IMG/VR virus record: IMGVR_UViG_3300006641_000077
Location: 1 to 37,363 of that record
Source of the DNA: a virus
Length of the DNA: 37,363 nucleotides
Strand: one strand, 5' to 3'
The notes below the pieces were generated by a model that had not been told where the DNA came from, did not search any database, and saw only the letters and a list, made by a program, of their open reading frames with translations. Below, in pieces: positions 14,645-37,363 of the stretch (its first letter is position 1; every line of letters begins with the position of its first letter). The position numbers and the translations under genes are program-made.

Positions 14645-17600
14645 TTACTTCTGCAATGCTATGACACGAAGATCGGCCACTCTTGGGAAAATAGCACTTG
14701 AATCAGACTTTAGACCAATCTTGATCTGATACTGTTTGAATCCTTGGAATAGTGTATTGGCACTATTTGTATATTCTACAATAGGAGAATCCTGATCATT
14801 TCTACCAGTCATATATGAATCTGGGAACTTGAACTGGAACTCACGCCAATCTTTTCTATTGGTCAAGGATGAATAAGACTTAGTATCAAATGCTTCCATT
14901 TCAATCCAATCTCTACCTCTAATAGACTCAAAGTCTTCTCCATGTGATATTCTAGTATAAACAATAAAGTCGGCATTTGATGTAGGTGGTCTATATGCTG
15001 TTAGAATGATTCGTAAATCTTCAGCATCTTGACCATCTGCCAGTGTTATGATCTGAGAGATATACTTATTCTTCAATCCACCACCAGAAGAAGCAATTTC
15101 ACCGGCAGTATTGGAATTGATTAGATTTTGAATATACACAGTATAAGTTCTATCAATGTTAACAACTGGTGATACATAGTCACTTGTTGTCGTCATGTTG
15201 ATCTTAACACGATTTGATTGTCTTCCAGCAAAAGTAGATATCTCTCTTGATCTAGAAAGAATTGCTTTTTCTTGATCAAAGTCTACTGGTGAACTAATTG
15301 CAATTGGCAAATAGTCGGTACCTTCGATCTCATTGTTACCTGTGGTTAACATCGAGAACTGACAATCGGTTGGAATAAAGTCTAAGTAACTTGGCTCAAA
15401 TTGAACAGATGAATACACAAACTTAGAAATGGCTGTAACATTTACAGTATTATCAGATAACTGTCCAAATAGAACGTCATTTGCTCTAAACAAACCATTT
15501 GATTCTGTAATTGTAAGAATTATACTATTACTATGTAATGTGCTTGTAGCATTTGATTTTGGATGTGCCTTATAAATTGTTCCTTCTGCTGTGTTCTTGG
15601 AAGCAATAGTGCTTGTTACACCCTTAGAAGTCATATTAGCAAAATAAACAGACAATGATTCGCCGACTTTATAGTGACCGCCTGTCATCTTGTAACGTGA
15701 ACCATCAATGCTACGAACTACGGAATTTGCACCAGAGTTCTGACCAATGATGAAATTACCTACCGAAATAGTACCTCCAACTGGAGTTGTGAGATTTAGT
15801 TCATCGTCGCTAAGTAATCTCTCACCAAACCATGCGCTGTTTGCTCCTGTTGCTGGTGTCAATGGAAGAGCAACATACTCTCTGCTCTGGTTACCTATAA
15901 CAGCTTCACCTGTTCTTGATGTGAACTTTGCTCTATAAAAATTGATTTTCAAATCAACTCTATCGACAATATTCCAATCTGTGTTATTGTTTGTAGTGTA
16001 TAATGTGCCTGTCAAAGGACGATCATTAACAGGTCTCTTAGTTAGAATGTCCTCTTGACCGAGAACAGAAACATACATATAATAATTTGGATTAATTCCA
16101 ACAGTGTGAATGATGAAAGCATACTCTTGATTGTTTAGCAAGAATATAGGTGCTTTGAATTTTACATTTGTTGCAACTGATCCATTACCAGATGTGTTAA
16201 CCTGACTTGATTCTAACCAAACTTCAGAATCTGGAACTTGTGTTTTAGTGATATTACCAGCAGCGTCCATTGCACGAACTTCAAACCATACTCCAAGATT
16301 TGGATCTTTTTCCGAGAAGAATACATCAACGCTCGTTAAGAATGTTCCTTCTTCTCCTGAAGGTGTATTCAACTTAAATGAATAAGCCATACAACTAATT
16401 CTATCTACATATTTACCTGTGACAGTTGTGGGTCCAGGAACAGTATTTTGTGACACAGATGTTGATGTGACAGAATATGTATTTGTTGTATTTGAAACAA
16501 CTACAGGATCAACTTGAACACCTGTTTTTGTTTCTGTTACTACATGAGATGTAGAAATAATAGTTTCTTGAACAGTCTGAGTAATACCCTGAGCATTAAA
16601 GAATGTTACGGCAGAAGATGTTGCATCAGGTTCATCTGTAGGACTATCTGTTACTGTAACTTCTTTTGAACCTGTTCTGAATGATTTACTAGAGTCAGAT
16701 GGAATTCTCAAGAAACCATAAACTCTACCATTTTCGTCAGAATACAGTTTGTCACCTTCTGCACCAGTTTTAACATAATTTGCAGAGTTGATTACTGTAT
16801 TTGAACCATTGTCTGGTGCTCCCATGACAACCACATCAGCAAGTCTTGCTGGTGTAACATAATCATTCATGAGTTGTCCATCAAAATAAACATAATGTCT
16901 AGTTGATGCCTTAACACCTCTTGCTTCAAATGCAATTGTTTGCGGACGAATATCTGCAATAGGAGCAACAGCAACAACCTTATCTCCAATACTTTGTGTT
17001 TCGGTTTGCAAACTCTGGAACGTCTCTGTAAATGTTCTTGACGCCTGAGTTGATGTCGAAGTAACAGTCTGATAAGTATTAGTTGTTGTCGTTGTGGCAG
17101 TAATAGAAATAGAACTGCCTGTAATCTGAAGTGTTAGTGTATCTCTTGGACTAATCCATACTGACGGTAATGGTGGTATCTGAGATGCACCATAAGTAAT
17201 TAAGTCATTAAGTTCGCCTAGTGTTTTTGGTAAAGTTCTGATAGGAATCTGCGGCGCCGGCGGCGGAGCAATCGCTGTAAGAAAATTATTAATTCCATAA
17301 ATCAATCTAGTGAAAAAGTTAGGATCAACAGTAATAGGTGTTGATGCTCCATAAGTAGAAATCAACGATGGTAGAGCAGTTTTAATTTCCATACCTGTAT
17401 ATGTTACTGTATTAGTTCCACCACTTGATGCTGGTCCAGCAACAGATGATGTTGATGATGTTGATGAAATCAATACAGGATCGGTTGTTGTGATACCAGT
17501 AACTGTTGTTTGATAAGCACCATACACCATTGAATATGGAGTAACGTCAGCATCGGTGGCGCCGAAACTAAATGTCTGACTTGCCAGTCTGTTAGTATTC

Positions 17601-20600
17601 ACCCAATAGTCACTATCTGGATTTAAATATAGTTTACCGATGAAACGATAAACGGTCGTTTCAACATTACGAGTTGTTGTTGCATATGGCTGCGATACAG
17701 ACAAAGTTTCGACATATGGAAGCATCAATAGATTACTTACTCTAACAATATTTGTGTTAGAATATAGTTCATATCCTATTGCTTGCGTATCATAAATTGG
17801 TCTAATTGAACCTTCTTTTGGATCATAACAAATGTGATGGTCAGGATTGCTTGTATCGGATGTGACAAAACTAGTGAATGAATCTACGAAGATACCATTT
17901 TTAAATCTATCCAGTCCGTTCTCATCAAGAATCTTAAGATCCATTGCAGACTTTTCAAGCAATGAAAGACTTACATAGTTTTCAATGTTGTCCACTCTTT
18001 GTTTCAATACACCAATGTCTTTCATAGTAAATCTAACTTGTGCTGTTCTGGCAGATCCGCAAGCCATATCGCCTCTACCAATTGCTTTGGCGAAAGCTGG
18101 TGATAGTGAAGGATATGGATTAATTGTTAGTTTTGCAACTGACATTAAATGTGGCGGACATGCAGGTGTTATAGGATTTACATTAGGAACACCCTGAATG
18201 ATCATAAATTGACCATACTTATTCAAAGTTACAATGTCTTTTCTTGCCAAGTAATAAGAGAAATCGTAACGAATTGTTTCTGAATCTGCAGGAAGTCTTA
18301 GGCCTGCAGATTCATATTGTAATGTAGTTGGAACAGCAGGATTTGTTGTTGCTCCTGCTGGTGTTGTAGAATCTGCTGCTGTGTTAGTATAAACTGGTCT
18401 AAAGTCCAAAAAGTTCTTTAGATCATATGTGACACCTGTTGTATCGGACTTGTAGATTGGAATTCCAATAGTTGTAATTTCAGTTGCAGAAGGATTCTGA
18501 TCATTAACTGGATAAGAGTCAACAGAAAAATATCCGACGCCTAGTGTATAATCTGGTTGGAAATAATCAAGACATACTAATAGTCTATCATTTGATGTTA
18601 GATATCCAGCTGGTGCGATCAATTGTGCGTGAGTATAGCAATCGTCTCGCTGGCCATTATTAAAAGCAAAATACTTGGTAACATCGGTTCCCTGGGTCGC
18701 ACTCGAAAATGTTGCGCTAGTATCTTTTCTAACTGACTTAACTCTATAAACATCTGAGAAACCTAGATCATAAGGACCGTTTGTTCCGTTTACAGAACTT
18801 GCACAGTTGATAACAACATAACGATCAACCTTAAGAACTTTTCTAACTTCACGAGCCAAGTTTCTTGACATTGTATATGAGACTGTTGCACTCTTAGTTG
18901 CTCCCAAAGTCTCATTAAGATCAAACGTCATACTCGTGTCGGTCGTTGTGACCGATCTAGTTCCAGAAACACCTTTACTAGTCAGATCAATCATATCACC
19001 AGCAAGATAAACTTTTGTCAAAGTATTGCTGGCAATGGTTGCTGGTAAATTTGTTGTAGTAGTTAGATATGTGTTATTAGATACAGATTCAATAATATAT
19101 GTAGAACTACTTCCTGACAATGTAATTCTATCACCAGGATTCAAATTGTTAAATGATGTTCCTGATCCTATTAGCGTCTTTGTGCCGCTTCCCCCGATAG
19201 CAGTACCAGTCAATGAAATAGATGCAGCATCATTAAGTGTTAGAAATATATCTTTAAGATCAGTATCTCCTAATGTACCTGATCCATATGGAAATGTTTC
19301 ATTTGCAATTGTTGAAGATAGTGTAAATGTTCCTGAACTTGTTACTGAAACATCTGATGTCTTTTTAAATAAGAATGATGTGTCAATGTTTCCATCTGGA
19401 CTTCTAATTGTCTTTGTGTGATTAGATCCTGTGTAATACAACATAGGAGTATATGTGTCAACAATGTAAGCATTGTTTGAACTATTTAAAATAACGTCAC
19501 CACCAATGTCTGCTGTAGTGCTGTTATTATAATACACACTCTTGACACTAGAGAATGCATTTGTGCCAAGCATATTGATGTCAAAGAGATGAACTTTCAA
19601 TACTCCATTTGGACTACCTAGATAACTATAAACTGTCCCTGCAGGAGGTGTGCTAGATGATATTGATTTAACTCTAGCAGTACCGATTTTCTTACCTGTC
19701 TGACTTGCTGCTGATCCACCGCCGGTTGAAATTCTTTTCTGTGGCGTGTCATATAGATCAATAAGTTGACCAGAATTGAGATTCCAGGAACCAACGGCTT
19801 CATTGATCTGAATATAGTTTCCTAATTTCGATGTTGATGTTTGATTATTAACATTTGAATATGTGGTTGCTTTTGGTAATGTTAGGAACTCAGTTTTTAT
19901 CTTATTAACTTCATATCCATGAACATATGCTTTACCCTGTTCGACCTGAACAGAAAGTAGATTAAAGTTACCGCCTTTAGAACTTGTTAAATATCCACCG
20001 TTTCCTTGATCTAGATGTTCTTCAATAACTGTGTTAAAGCCTTTTACATAGTAGTCGCCTGATTCATCATAGGTTCTTCTGGCAAGTTCATTCTTAATAA
20101 CGTTGTATTGTGGTCTCTCGTTAATCTCACTGACAATACCATTGTCAATAGTAAATAGATTAACATAGTCCGGGAACCCAGCATTACTATTTAAATCTAG
20201 TCTTGTTAGGATTGGTGTAATCTTAAATCTATCTGCACCTGGTGCTGCATAGTTAGATGACTCTAGAGCAGGGTCTAGAAGTGAACTATCCTTATCAGAT
20301 GTAACAATCTCTTCGTTTAGAACAAATCCGACTTTACAGGTTGGGTTAATACCATATCTATCTACAACTACAGTTTGTGTATCGTGATGAATGAAGTGCT
20401 GTTTGCAGAAACGAACACCCTCTGCTACGGTAAACACAGATCCATATCCTACAGGAATTGTGTTACCAACAATAATTGTTCCTACATTTGATATAAGTGG
20501 TTCATTTGCTGTGAACACTGTTTCATCTGTATTAGCATTACCAGCAGTATATGTTACATATAATGTTTTAGGTTTATCTGTACCTTCTGTTCCGTCTAGA

Positions 20601-20989
20601 ACTAGATTAACGTAAGCCTTAACACCAGTAGTCTGACCTGTAATAGTTTGACCTAGAAAACTATTAATGTCTACATCTTCACCAAATGCGTCTTTATCAT
20701 TGATCTTAACATAGTTTGCTCTGGTGTCAAGTGTAAACTTTCCACCAAGAACCATGCTTCCTTCCATGAACATATGCTGTCCAAATTTCTGGATCTGGTC
20801 TTGAAGTATTGACTGAATCTGTGTTAGTTCTCGTGACTGAACGGCAAATCCTGGCTTGAACAAAATCTTATAATAGTTGTTCTTATGATCAAAGTCATCA
20901 TAATAAGGATTTACATTGAAGTTGGTAGTAACAGAACTTACGTTGGAGTAGAAAAACTCATCGTTAGCATATACTAGGTCGTCAGCCAT
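14645..20989 (-). CDS. giant DUF4815-family baseplate wedge/fibre protein (gp10 position)
   Basis: At 2,114 aa this is the largest gene in the window. The N-terminus (about 20-420: NPYYDDFDHKNNYYKILFKP, then GFAVQSRELTQIQSILQDQI) matches the DUF4815 domain of aquatic T4-like phages. This domain stands in place of, and is often annotated as, baseplate wedge gp10 or a structural tail protein. T4 gp10 has 602 aa, so this is about 3.5 times longer. The middle, about 1150-1500, is Thr/Ser-rich low-complexity sequence (TTTTNTYQTVTSTSTQ). The C-terminal third is beta-rich. It follows gp8 with AAGGA before ATG, as gene 10 follows 8 and 9 in T4. Likely a wedge component that anchors fibres. Confidence 0.85.
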   Translation of the reverse strand: MADDLVYANDEFFYSNVSSVTTNFNVNPYYDDFDHKNNYYKILFKPGFAVQSRELTQIQSILQDQIQKFGQHMFMEGSMVLGGKFTLDTRANYVKINDKDAFGEDVDINSFLGQTITGQTTGVKAYVNLVLDGTEGTDKPKTLYVTYTAGNANTDETVFTANEPLISNVGTIIVGNTIPVGYGSVFTVAEGVRFCKQHFIHHDTQTVVVDRYGINPTCKVGFVLNEEIVTSDKDSSLLDPALESSNYAAPGADRFKITPILTRLDLNSNAGFPDYVNLFTIDNGIVSEINERPQYNVIKNELARRTYDESGDYYVKGFNTVIEEHLDQGNGGYLTSSKGGNFNLLSVQVEQGKAYVHGYEVNKIKTEFLTLPKATTYSNVNNQTSTSKLGNYIQINEAVGSWNLNSGQLIDLYDTPQKRISTGGGSAASQTGKKIGTARVKSISSSTPPAGTVYSYLGSPNGVLKVHLFDINMLGTNAFSSVKSVYYNNSTTADIGGDVILNSSNNAYIVDTYTPMLYYTGSNHTKTIRSPDGNIDTSFLFKKTSDVSVTSSGTFTLSSTIANETFPYGSGTLGDTDLKDIFLTLNDAASISLTGTAIGGSGTKTLIGSGTSFNNLNPGDRITLSGSSSTYIIESVSNNTYLTTTTNLPATIASNTLTKVYLAGDMIDLTSKGVSGTRSVTTTDTSMTFDLNETLGATKSATVSYTMSRNLAREVRKVLKVDRYVVINCASSVNGTNGPYDLGFSDVYRVKSVRKDTSATFSSATQGTDVTKYFAFNNGQRDDCYTHAQLIAPAGYLTSNDRLLVCLDYFQPDYTLGVGYFSVDSYPVNDQNPSATEITTIGIPIYKSDTTGVTYDLKNFLDFRPVYTNTAADSTTPAGATTNPAVPTTLQYESAGLRLPADSETIRYDFSYYLARKDIVTLNKYGQFMIIQGVPNVNPITPACPPHLMSVAKLTINPYPSLSPAFAKAIGRGDMACGSARTAQVRFTMKDIGVLKQRVDNIENYVSLSLLEKSAMDLKILDENGLDRFKNGIFVDSFTSFVTSDTSNPDHHICYDPKEGSIRPIYDTQAIGYELYSNTNIVRVSNLLMLPYVETLSVSQPYATTTRNVETTVYRFIGKLYLNPDSDYWVNTNRLASQTFSFGATDADVTPYSMVYGAYQTTVTGITTTDPVLISSTSSTSSVAGPASSGGTNTVTYTGMEIKTALPSLISTYGASTPITVDPNFFTRLIYGINNFLTAIAPPPAPQIPIRTLPKTLGELNDLITYGASQIPPLPSVWISPRDTLTLQITGSSISITATTTTTNTYQTVTSTSTQASRTFTETFQSLQTETQSIGDKVVAVAPIADIRPQTIAFEARGVKASTRHYVYFDGQLMNDYVTPARLADVVVMGAPDNGSNTVINSANYVKTGAEGDKLYSDENGRVYGFLRIPSDSSKSFRTGSKEVTVTDSPTDEPDATSSAVTFFNAQGITQTVQETIISTSHVVTETKTGVQVDPVVVSNTTNTYSVTSTSVSQNTVPGPTTVTGKYVDRISCMAYSFKLNTPSGEEGTFLTSVDVFFSEKDPNLGVWFEVRAMDAAGNITKTQVPDSEVWLESSQVNTSGNGSVATNVKFKAPIFLLNNQEYAFIIHTVGINPNYYMYVSVLGQEDILTKRPVNDRPLTGTLYTTNNNTDWNIVDRVDLKINFYRAKFTSRTGEAVIGNQSREYVALPLTPATGANSAWFGERLLSDDELNLTTPVGGTISVGNFIIGQNSGANSVVRSIDGSRYKMTGGHYKVGESLSVYFANMTSKGVTSTIASKNTAEGTIYKAHPKSNATSTLHSNSIILTITESNGLFRANDVLFGQLSDNTVNVTAISKFVYSSVQFEPSYLDFIPTDCQFSMLTTGNNEIEGTDYLPIAISSPVDFDQEKAILSRSREISTFAGRQSNRVKINMTTTSDYVSPVVNIDRTYTVYIQNLINSNTAGEIASSGGGLKNKYISQIITLADGQDAEDLRIILTAYRPPTSNADFIVYTRISHGEDFESIRGRDWIEMEAFDTKSYSSLTNRKDWREFQFKFPDSYMTGRNDQDSPIVEYTNSANTLFQGFKQYQIKIGLKSDSSAIFPRVADLRVIALQK

Positions 20990-35004: not shown

Positions 35005-35757
35005 ATGCCTTTGCCAGTTGAAACGGTAGAAAGACCTCTACCAAAAATTGATGTGCCAGTTTATACAGTAAAGATACCATCAAGCGGAAAGACTATCAAG
35101 GTCAGACCATTTACAGTGAAAGAAGAAAAGTTATTGTTTATGGCTGCCGAGTCAAACAATCTTGAAGATATTATCACTACAAGTAAGCAAGTATTGAATA
35201 ACTGTATTGTTAATGGTGACATAGACTTAGACAAGATGCCATTCTTTGACATAGACTTTTTGTTTATCTTTCTTCGTGCCAAGTCTGTCGGAGAATCGGT
35301 TGAAGTAAATCTAACGTGTAACAATACACTAGAAGATGGAAATAGATGTGGTCATACATTTCCCACACAGATGGACATTGCAAAATGCGAAGTAGTAAAA
35401 GATGACAGTATAAGCAATGACATAAAGTTTGACAAGTATAGCGGTGTTAAAATGAAATATCCGAACTATGCTTTAGTCAAAAAACTAGATGAAGCATCTG
35501 AGATAGACAAGAAAACGACGATCATTATTAACTCTATTGAACACATATATGATAAGAAGGGCGTCTACTCATCCAAAGATTATTCATCAAAAGAACTAAA
35601 AGACTTTGTTGAAGGACTTACAGAAGAAAACTATAAGAAGATGGAATCATTTGTCGATAACTTTCCAACCTTCGTTGTTAAACTTGAAGCAGACTGTCCT
35701 AAATGTGGATTTCATCATGTCGTGAGGTATTCAGATTTCTTAGATTTTTTTTACTGA
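35005..35757 (+). CDS. 26: baseplate hub/tail assembly protein gp26
   Basis: A protein of 250 aa of the T4 gp26 (T4_baseplate) family. It has the opening VYTVKIPSSGKTIKVRPFTV and KEEKLLFMA, the central FFDIDFLFIFLRAKSVGE and a zinc-ribbon-like cysteine set, Cys105, Cys115 and His117, then Cys231 and Cys234 (CPKCGFHH) near the end, before DFLDFFY. In T4, gp26 with gp51 helps hub assembly. Here the stop follows an 8-T run (35745-35752), and the next reading frame (-1) is open into a gp51-like region, so a minor product of about 324 aa is predicted. Spacer of 17 bp from the previous gene, site GTGGAG before ATG. Confidence 0.92.
   Translation: MPLPVETVERPLPKIDVPVYTVKIPSSGKTIKVRPFTVKEEKLLFMAAESNNLEDIITTSKQVLNNCIVNGDIDLDKMPFFDIDFLFIFLRAKSVGESVEVNLTCNNTLEDGNRCGHTFPTQMDIAKCEVVKDDSISNDIKFDKYSGVKMKYPNYALVKKLDEASEIDKKTTIIINSIEHIYDKKGVYSSKDYSSKELKDFVEGLTEENYKKMESFVDNFPTFVVKLEADCPKCGFHHVVRYSDFLDFFY
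35745..35751 (+). promoter_or_regulatory. predicted -1 ribosomal frameshift (slippery heptamer T TTT TTT)
   Basis: In the gp26 frame the end reads GAT TTT TTT TAC TGA, giving T TTT TTT, a valid X XXY YYZ slippery heptamer. It lies one codon before the gp26 stop. Slipping back by one base leads into TTA CTG ATT CTG GGA, the frame that encodes the HHHWSISELE region. GAGG at 35724-35727, about 17 bases upstream, could act as an internal stimulator. I see no strong downstream hairpin. The pairing of an 8-T run with overlapping frames and no start for the second gene is the basis for the call. Confidence 0.72.
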
Positions 35758-35978
35758 TTCTGGGACATGATAAACTTGGCAATGTCTTTAAAACAAACTT
35801 TTCGCTAATGCAGCATCATCATTGGAGTATTAGCGAACTTGAAAACATGATGCCCTGGGAAAGATATATCTATATTGATTTGCTTGAAGCATTCTTGATA
35901 GAACAAGAAAAACTCGCAAAGCAAAGAGAACAAGAGATGAAATCACAAATTAAACAGGCACAGAGAAGAAGACAATAA
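35751..35978 (+). CDS. 51: gp51-like C-terminal extension, expressed by -1 frameshift from gp26
   Basis: The -1 frame from the slippery site to the stop at 35976-35978 encodes 75 codons, LLILGHDKLG...NFSLMQHHHWSISELENMMP followed by WERYIYIDLLEAFLIEQEKL and a basic tail. The pattern 'HHxWSxxELExMxPWExxIYxxLL' is that of gp51-position hub-assembly proteins in T4-like phages. The only ATG in a useful place (35808-35810) lacks a ribosome binding site, so independent initiation is unlikely. The fusion with gp26 would have about 324 aa. In T4, genes 26 and 51 are adjacent but separate. Organisation recalls the G/GT tail-assembly chaperones of siphoviruses. Confidence 0.75.
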   Translation, partial: LLILGHDKLGNVFKTNFSLMQHHHWSISELENMMPWERYIYIDLLEAFLIEQEKLAKQREQEMKSQIKQAQRRRQ

Positions 35979-37363
35979 TGCCATTTAGTCAAGCAAGAAA
36001 AACAAACTTCAATGCTCTAAGAAATTTAAATCTGGAACAGAGAATAGAGGCTATTAGTGATCCTAGAATGGGCCAGTTTCTGATCTCTATGCTGTCTCCT
36101 ACACAAGCAGCGGAGTTATTTCCAAAGTATTATATTGAACGCAATCAGAACATTAGTGGATTTCTGAAAGCAATACCATCTTCATTAAGTGCTGCAAAAC
36201 AAAAAGAATATGAACAACAGTTAGAGAATACTGCATCTGGTGAGTCCGCCGGCGCAAACTATAATGCTGGTGGATATCGTAAGAAGTGGCAAGAAAATGT
36301 AGATGCTCAAAGAGTGACCGTTAGCAAAAAGGGCGTCACGCCTCCTCCACAATTATCTCCAGAACAAAAGGCTGCCTTTGATGCATTGAAGGCCGGCGAC
36401 ATTGATATTAACGATGACAGAATGAAGTGGTTAAAGAATGCGCCGAAAGAAGTTCTTAAAGAGGTTGGCATCAGCACTGTAAAAGATGATAAAGGTAATG
36501 AGAAATTTCATTATACCGCTCCTCAGGTTAGTGAAGAAGAAGCAAGAAAAAGTATGATATCTAAACCCGGGGAGGACTCAGCGAGAAAATCTGCGGAATC
36601 ATATTTGGGAAGACAGATGAGTGATCATGAATGGTCATTACTTCTATCGACAACGAAAGCAGAAGCGACAAGTCACAAGGGTGAAACTGCCATGGTTATG
36701 GCTACAATTTTAAATAGAGCAAGAAGTGGAAATTGGGGAGGACATAGTATAGAAGAAGTTGTGTCCGCCAAAAACCAATTTTCATCTTGGATGAATGGCA
36801 CGGCAAGACAAGAACCTACAGAAAAAAGAAAACTGTCTATGTATGAGTCTGCTACAATGCTTTCAGGTATTTCTCATAGACAAACAGAATTTGCTTCAGC
36901 AAGTGTTGCCGCATATAATACATCAACCGACGGAGGTGGTGGAGAAAGAAAAATTCGTGAAAGATTGGCTAGAGGTTTCACTCAAGTTGGCGGTCAGATA
37001 TTTAATGCAGCATCAGAATCAACAATAAAATCAAATGTAGTTTCTCCAGATCCTATCACCCAAAACTACACACCTCAGCAAATTGCTGCTAGACAACAGC
37101 AAATGCAGGTTGAAGCAGAAGCAGGTCGTTTAGGTAAACTTGCCGGGATTACTCAACCAGACGGTCCTGTGAATGCGGCTGGTCCTGTTAAATATGACGG
37201 TGCTATGCCAAATGTTAAAGTTGACTATGAAAAATCGATGAGTAGATGCGGCATCGGTGTTCGACATATCGCTGAACAGATGTATGGTAGTAAATATTTC
37301 CAAGGAGGTTTAGGTGGTCCGGCATCTACACTTTCTAAAGGAAATTCTTATCTTTCCAATTCT
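35978..37363 (+). CDS. large tail-associated protein with SleB-like cell-wall hydrolase domain (3' end beyond window)
   Basis: An open frame of 462 codons runs from ATG at 35978-35980, overlapping the gp51-like stop (TAATG), to the window end without a stop. Residues 1-70 are a helical N-terminus (MPFSQARKTNFNALRNLNLE). Residues about 210-320 match the SleB/CwlJ hydrolase family: a Glu229 in the 'KAEA' position of the catalytic Glu, then KGETAMVMATILNRARSGNW and VVSAKNQFSSW. A new domain begins near residue 420 with SRCGIGVRHIAEQMYG, where Cys424 sits in a context like that of CHAP/NlpC-type peptidases. It probably cleaves peptidoglycan during infection. A tape measure (gp29) role, by position after 26/51, is possible. 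Confidence 0.8.
   Translation, partial: MPFSQARKTNFNALRNLNLEQRIEAISDPRMGQFLISMLSPTQAAELFPKYYIERNQNISGFLKAIPSSLSAAKQKEYEQQLENTASGESAGANYNAGGYRKKWQENVDAQRVTVSKKGVTPPPQLSPEQKAAFDALKAGDIDINDDRMKWLKNAPKEVLKEVGISTVKDDKGNEKFHYTAPQVSEEEARKSMISKPGEDSARKSAESYLGRQMSDHEWSLLLSTTKAEATSHKGETAMVMATILNRARSGNWGGHSIEEVVSAKNQFSSWMNGTARQEPTEKRKLSMYESATMLSGISHRQTEFASASVAAYNTSTDGGGGERKIRERLARGFTQVGGQIFNAASESTIKSNVVSPDPITQNYTPQQIAARQQQMQVEAEAGRLGKLAGITQPDGPVNAAGPVKYDGAMPNVKVDYEKSMSRCGIGVRHIAEQMYGSKYFQGGLGGPASTLSKGNSYLSNS

Follow-up and report, generated by a model that had tools for sequence, protein, structure and literature searches.

The window analysed here is a 37,363-nucleotide stretch of viral DNA (IMG/VR record IMGVR_UViG_3300006641_000077), and toward its 3' end lies a gp26-type gene whose last codons read GAT (35743-35745) TTT TTT TAC (35752-35754) TGA (Table 1). 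The T8 run at 35745-35752 is the sole run of at least eight T in the window, in which two runs of exactly seven T occur elsewhere, and it contains a heptamer with the zero-frame codons TTT (35746-35748) and TTT (35749-35751). When 26 window ORFs, each of at least 100 amino acids, were screened for a run of at least six T (or A) in the last 24 bases before the stop, the gp26-type gene was the only one to have it (1 of 26).

The -1 frame around the T run has no stop codon between 35703 and the TAA at 35976-35978, and Markov-1 simulations gave 73 open -1 codons beyond the stop in 0.8% of cases. Up to the conserved block that this frame encodes, its only start codons of the ATG, GTG or TTG type are ATG 35703, within gp26, and ATG 35808, within the block itself, and no Shine-Dalgarno-like sequence precedes either of them in the window. 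The ATG of the downstream gene overlaps the TAA of the extension to form TAATG, an overlap that also occurs in VAP7 and K452. A preliminary description of this DNA had reported the TTT TTT TAC TGA ending with its eight T, the -1 frame open across it with a conserved region that lacks a start preceded by a ribosome binding site, and the TAATG overlap, and the sequence bears out all of these features. Both parts of the window gene match family profiles of T4 gp26 and gp51 (PF12322, phrog_150, and phrog_634); besides its phrog_634 match, the extension aligns with columns 229-277 of 282, at the C-terminal end of phrog_150, the gp26 family profile.

Table 1. Positions in the window of the gp26-type gene, its candidate slippery site, the predicted extension, and the next gene
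Feature	Position	Strand	Evidence
gp26-type gene, short form (TAC-N), 250 aa	35005..35757	+	PF12322 T4_baseplate, E 5e-55; phrog_150 baseplate hub, E 2e-58; model matches solved tail assembly chaperones
Candidate slippery heptamer T TTT TTT	35745..35751	+	Sequence; T7 invariant in clade; T TTT TTC in 50/50 distant loci
Predicted -1 extension, gp51-type (TAC-C), 75 codons then TAA	35751..35978	+	phrog_634 'baseplate hub assembly catalyst', E 2e-24; all relatives keep extension; colinear with T4 gp51 C terminus; third-position excess
Next gene, truncated by contig end, cell wall hydrolase domain	35978..37363	+	PF07486, E 5e-09

The next gene, which runs off the contig, may encode a tape measure or hub protein that carries a lytic domain. 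The gene at the same position in P-SSM4 is 1064 aa long and annotated as an endolysin, the Cr30 record has an annotated tape measure protein 0.4 kb downstream of the pair, and the T4 gene order is 51-27-28-29. Elsewhere in the window, a 2114-aa ORF on the minus strand (14648-20989) matches phrog_358, a family of unknown function, and lies within a cluster of baseplate wedge and hub genes.

Predicted frameshift and conservation of its site

The analysis shows the anatomy of this gene, its conservation, the homology of its fused product to T4 gp51, which is encoded in a single frame, and a chaperone-like predicted fold; the occurrence of a shift, its rate, and the binding partners of its products are inferred. 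We consider it very probable that one gene makes two tail assembly chaperones here by -1 programmed frameshifting. Most ribosomes would stop at TGA (35755-35757) and release the 250-aa short form (TAC-N, gp26), and a minority would move back by one base at T TTT TTT and read the -1 frame as far as 35975, which would yield a 324-aa long form (TAC-NC; 249 residues from gp26 and 75 from the extension) with a gp51-type C-terminal domain. The junction predicted from a slip at this heptamer is ...DFLDFF-LLILGHDK..., in agreement with the preliminary description, and the junction peptide DFLDFFLLILGHDK would mark the fused long form. By analogy with lambda G/GT, coating of the tape measure or hub protein would fall to the short form and recruitment of tail subunits to the extension, and neither form would remain in the virion.

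Our scan of IMG/VR yielded 80 loci, 78 of which have the gp26 stop within the contig. A T run lies directly 5' of the gp26 stop in all 78 readable loci, and their -1 frame is open to the end of the extension or of the contig, with open lengths of 58 to 78 codons where contigs are long enough. The isolate genomes P-SSM4, S-ShM2, MA10, Cr30, Ps15, X1, ORM_20, S-WAM1, and Melnitz-3 agree on the site. Differences among relatives in the -1 frame fall mostly on its third codon positions (13268, 6114, and 23729 at positions 1, 2, and 3), which indicates that the extension is a translated protein.

A codon-level control was made with 50 distinct loci outside the window's clade, which form 24 clusters at 80% DNA identity and show pairwise DNA identities down to 52%. 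The last two Phe codons of gp26 are TTT and then TTC, each in 50 of the 50 loci, and the Ser or Asn codon before them ends in T just as regularly (50/50), so that the heptamer always reads T TTT TTC. At five further Phe columns of gp26 that are almost invariant, both codons occur (TTT 20-41, TTC 8-30), and the remaining gp26 Phe codons of these loci comprise 388 TTT vs 160 TTC. Since the heptamer codons are invariant while other Phe columns are mixed, protein constraint, on this comparison, cannot explain them. Within the window's clade, a run of T7 to T9 is found instead, and all seven sequences compared (the window and six relatives) have the T7 without variation. The preliminary description had seen in this locus a -1 frameshift arrangement of the G/GT chaperone type and had proposed that relatives be compared for the T run and the -1 relation; both are kept at the loci counted above, and the comparative data and the predicted fold support the arrangement.

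In four loci of Ackermannviridae and Vibrio (L085, L087, L100, and L101), the extension is retained in the -1 relation with a shorter T run, and the sites there (GTTTTC, ATTTTC, GTTTTTC, and CTTTTTG) are candidate slip positions only.

Signals that might stimulate a shift were also sought. No conserved downstream RNA structure was found in an alignment of 29 sequences; a window hairpin about 50 nt downstream of the site (z -2.7) is too distant to be a stimulator, and shorter segments fold no better than shuffled sequences. Most relatives have the motif GARGG some 9 nt 5' of the heptamer; we rejected it as a Shine-Dalgarno-like stimulator because conserved Glu-Gly codons already prescribe it and the window lacks it.

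Relation to T4 gp26 and gp51 and predicted fold

T4 gp26 (208 aa) consists of the PF12322 domain alone, and T4 gp51 (249 aa) consists of the same domain (residues 1-201) followed by the extension in a single frame; their genes are paralogues on opposite strands. A profile of the fused products aligns with T4 gp51 straight through the junction, and T4 gp26 ends where the slip point would be. At the slip position, the ten T4-type gp26 genes that we examined (T4 and nine IMG/VR loci) read TTC TTT (GAG TTC TTT GAG) or have lost the Phe-Phe pair, and what follows in these ten genes is gene 25, with no extension. Judged by sequence, phages with a dedicated gene for the long form lack the frameshift signal, and T4 gp26 is the counterpart of the short form (lambda G) and gp51 that of the long form (GT, not T). 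The preliminary description had likened T4 gp26 and gp51 to a frameshift chaperone pair, which holds for the pairing of a short with a long form; its equation of gp51 with the extension alone does not hold, as T4 gp51 is the full-length long form. Vladimirov, Gautam, and Davidson reportedly concluded in 2022 that T4 genes 26 and 51 are a separate-gene solution and that several T4-like groups keep the frameshift. Both T4 proteins appear in a list of hub assembly chaperones, and gp51 is reported to be required yet absent from the particle (PMC3004832).

As a side observation, T4 gp26 (L082, 3303-3929) weakly matches the T4 gp28 family phrog_1140, 'baseplate hub distal subunit' (E 9e-4), a hint that gp28, too, may be a distant paralogue.

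An AlphaFold2 model of the window gp26-type protein (mean pLDDT 88) finds its best structural matches in 3fgx (Z 8.5), the HK97 tail assembly chaperone 2ob9 (Z 7.8), and 5ir0 (Z 5.4), all three over approximately residues 7-104 and followed by an unrelated entry at Z 3.0, where values of Z below 8 can reflect a common arrangement. 3fgx and 2ob9 are treated as tail assembly chaperones (PMC9603447). When Foldseek alone was run against the PDB, the chaperone matches were not significant (E-values 2.7 to 4.3); sequence profiles found no solved relative of the window protein, and the model of a T4-type gp51 gave no chaperone match in the structural comparison. With moderate confidence, we assign the modeled N-terminal domain of the window protein to the tail assembly chaperone fold. 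5ir0, which stands third beside the two chaperones, is an uncharacterized protein of a Vibrio cholerae PICI-like element and may itself be a chaperone homologue.

Alternative routes to the long form

Public records annotate the extension as a separate small gene 51, and its translation might begin past the gp26 stop, either by translational coupling or by reinitiation. A short 'gp51' is annotated in P-SSM4, S-ShM2, MA10, and Melnitz-3, and an ATG lies at or just past the gp26 stop in P-SSM4, Cr30, and loci L006, L008, L012, L013, and L066. However, over the interval -10 to +47 relative to the gp26 stop, the -1 frame of 49 of 59 loci (the window and 48 others) lacks any ATG, GTG, or TTG. The next ATG would truncate the conserved block and is not preceded by a ribosome binding site, nothing at the protein level accounts for the invariance of the heptamer codons, and T4 makes the equivalent product as one fused chain. 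We regard a separate gene 51 as very improbable, and reinitiation in the minority of relatives that have an ATG at the stop is unlikely to be the main mechanism. Many public records appear instead to split one gene into two or to miss its second part: the extension is left blank in S-WAM1, and in Melnitz-3 its annotated start is an internal ATG, so that part of the conserved block is cut off.

Transcriptional slippage would supply the long form by another route, with RNA polymerase adding a U on the T8 or T9 run and thereby placing part of the mRNA in the -1 frame. Runs of eight or nine T are the lengths at which polymerase slippage becomes plausible, and the window has T8 and loci L012 and L013 have T9. 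Against this, most relatives have only T6 followed by C, which is too short for efficient slippage, the phasing of T TTT TTC is exact, and a shared mechanism is simpler, so that we give this alternative little chance, and polymerase slippage on the long T run of the window's clade is unlikely to be the main mechanism. It is conceivable, at slim odds, that in this clade (T7 to T9) the long form arises partly or wholly by polymerase slippage, in which case the chaperone family would have three routes to its long form, namely, frameshifting by the ribosome, slippage by the polymerase, and, as in T4, a fused gene of its own.

A chance T run, a pseudogene, or a sequencing error, with gp26 and the extension truly in one frame, has next to no likelihood: homopolymer runs are error-prone, but dozens of independent contigs, and isolate genomes as well, share this frame relation, many of them with the short T6C site, and T4-type phages encode both forms as separate genes.

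Place among known frameshifting chaperones

Ribosomal frameshifting in T4-like chaperone genes is not new. The preliminary description was unsure whether a gp26/gp51 frameshift pair had been described; according to PMC12846349 and PMC10885494, this was done in 2022. The former credits knowledge of poly-T slippery sites in the TAC-N genes of T4-like phages to Vladimirov, Gautam, and Davidson (2022, Virology 566:9-15; PMC12846349), and the latter credits to the same work that some T4-like phages have a short gene and a fused long gene instead of a frameshift (PMC10885494). As the general insight was already published, the window is a well-supported further example of a known arrangement and not a discovery; what this analysis contributes is a further clade, the codon-level statistics, and the structural match.

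The proposed frameshift also bears on two older observations. In 2010, cyanophage and marine vibriophage gp51 was noted to lack about 200 N-terminal residues, an oddity for which we found no explanation in the pertinent part of that paper (PMC3037559); these residues would come from gp26 via the frameshift. In 2016, G-T frameshifting was described as widely conserved except in T4 (PMC5009743), and the relatives of this listed exception would now fall under the chaperone frameshift rule of long-tailed phages.

Lambda G/GT and P2 E/E+E' resemble the window gene in having a short and a long form with a common N-terminal domain and a -1 shift shortly before the short form ends, and HK97 gp13 (2ob9) is a solved member. 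The lambda slippery sequence is G GGA AAG, whereas the window would slip on a T run. Moreover, the window protein is larger than the lambda/P2-type chaperones, and the chaperone-like fold covers only approximately residues 7-104 of it. Neither lambda chaperone form is found in the mature virion (PMC5009743).

In the Vandenendeviridae and Andersonviridae, the chaperone locus (phage Adele) resembles the window in its -1 shift at a conserved T-rich GTTTTT, and the long form of Adele has been misannotated as a separate gene (PMC12846349). These are different phage families, and the likeness to the window drawn here is one of arrangement. T4 itself offers gp26 as the counterpart of the predicted short form and gp51 as that of the long form, colinear across the junction, and differs from the window in having two paralogous genes on opposite strands and no slippery site. 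The T4-like TAC-N/TAC-NC genes belong to the same gene family as the window gene and have poly-T slippery sites, and in the window's clade a run of T7 to T9 takes the place of the usual T TTT TTC.
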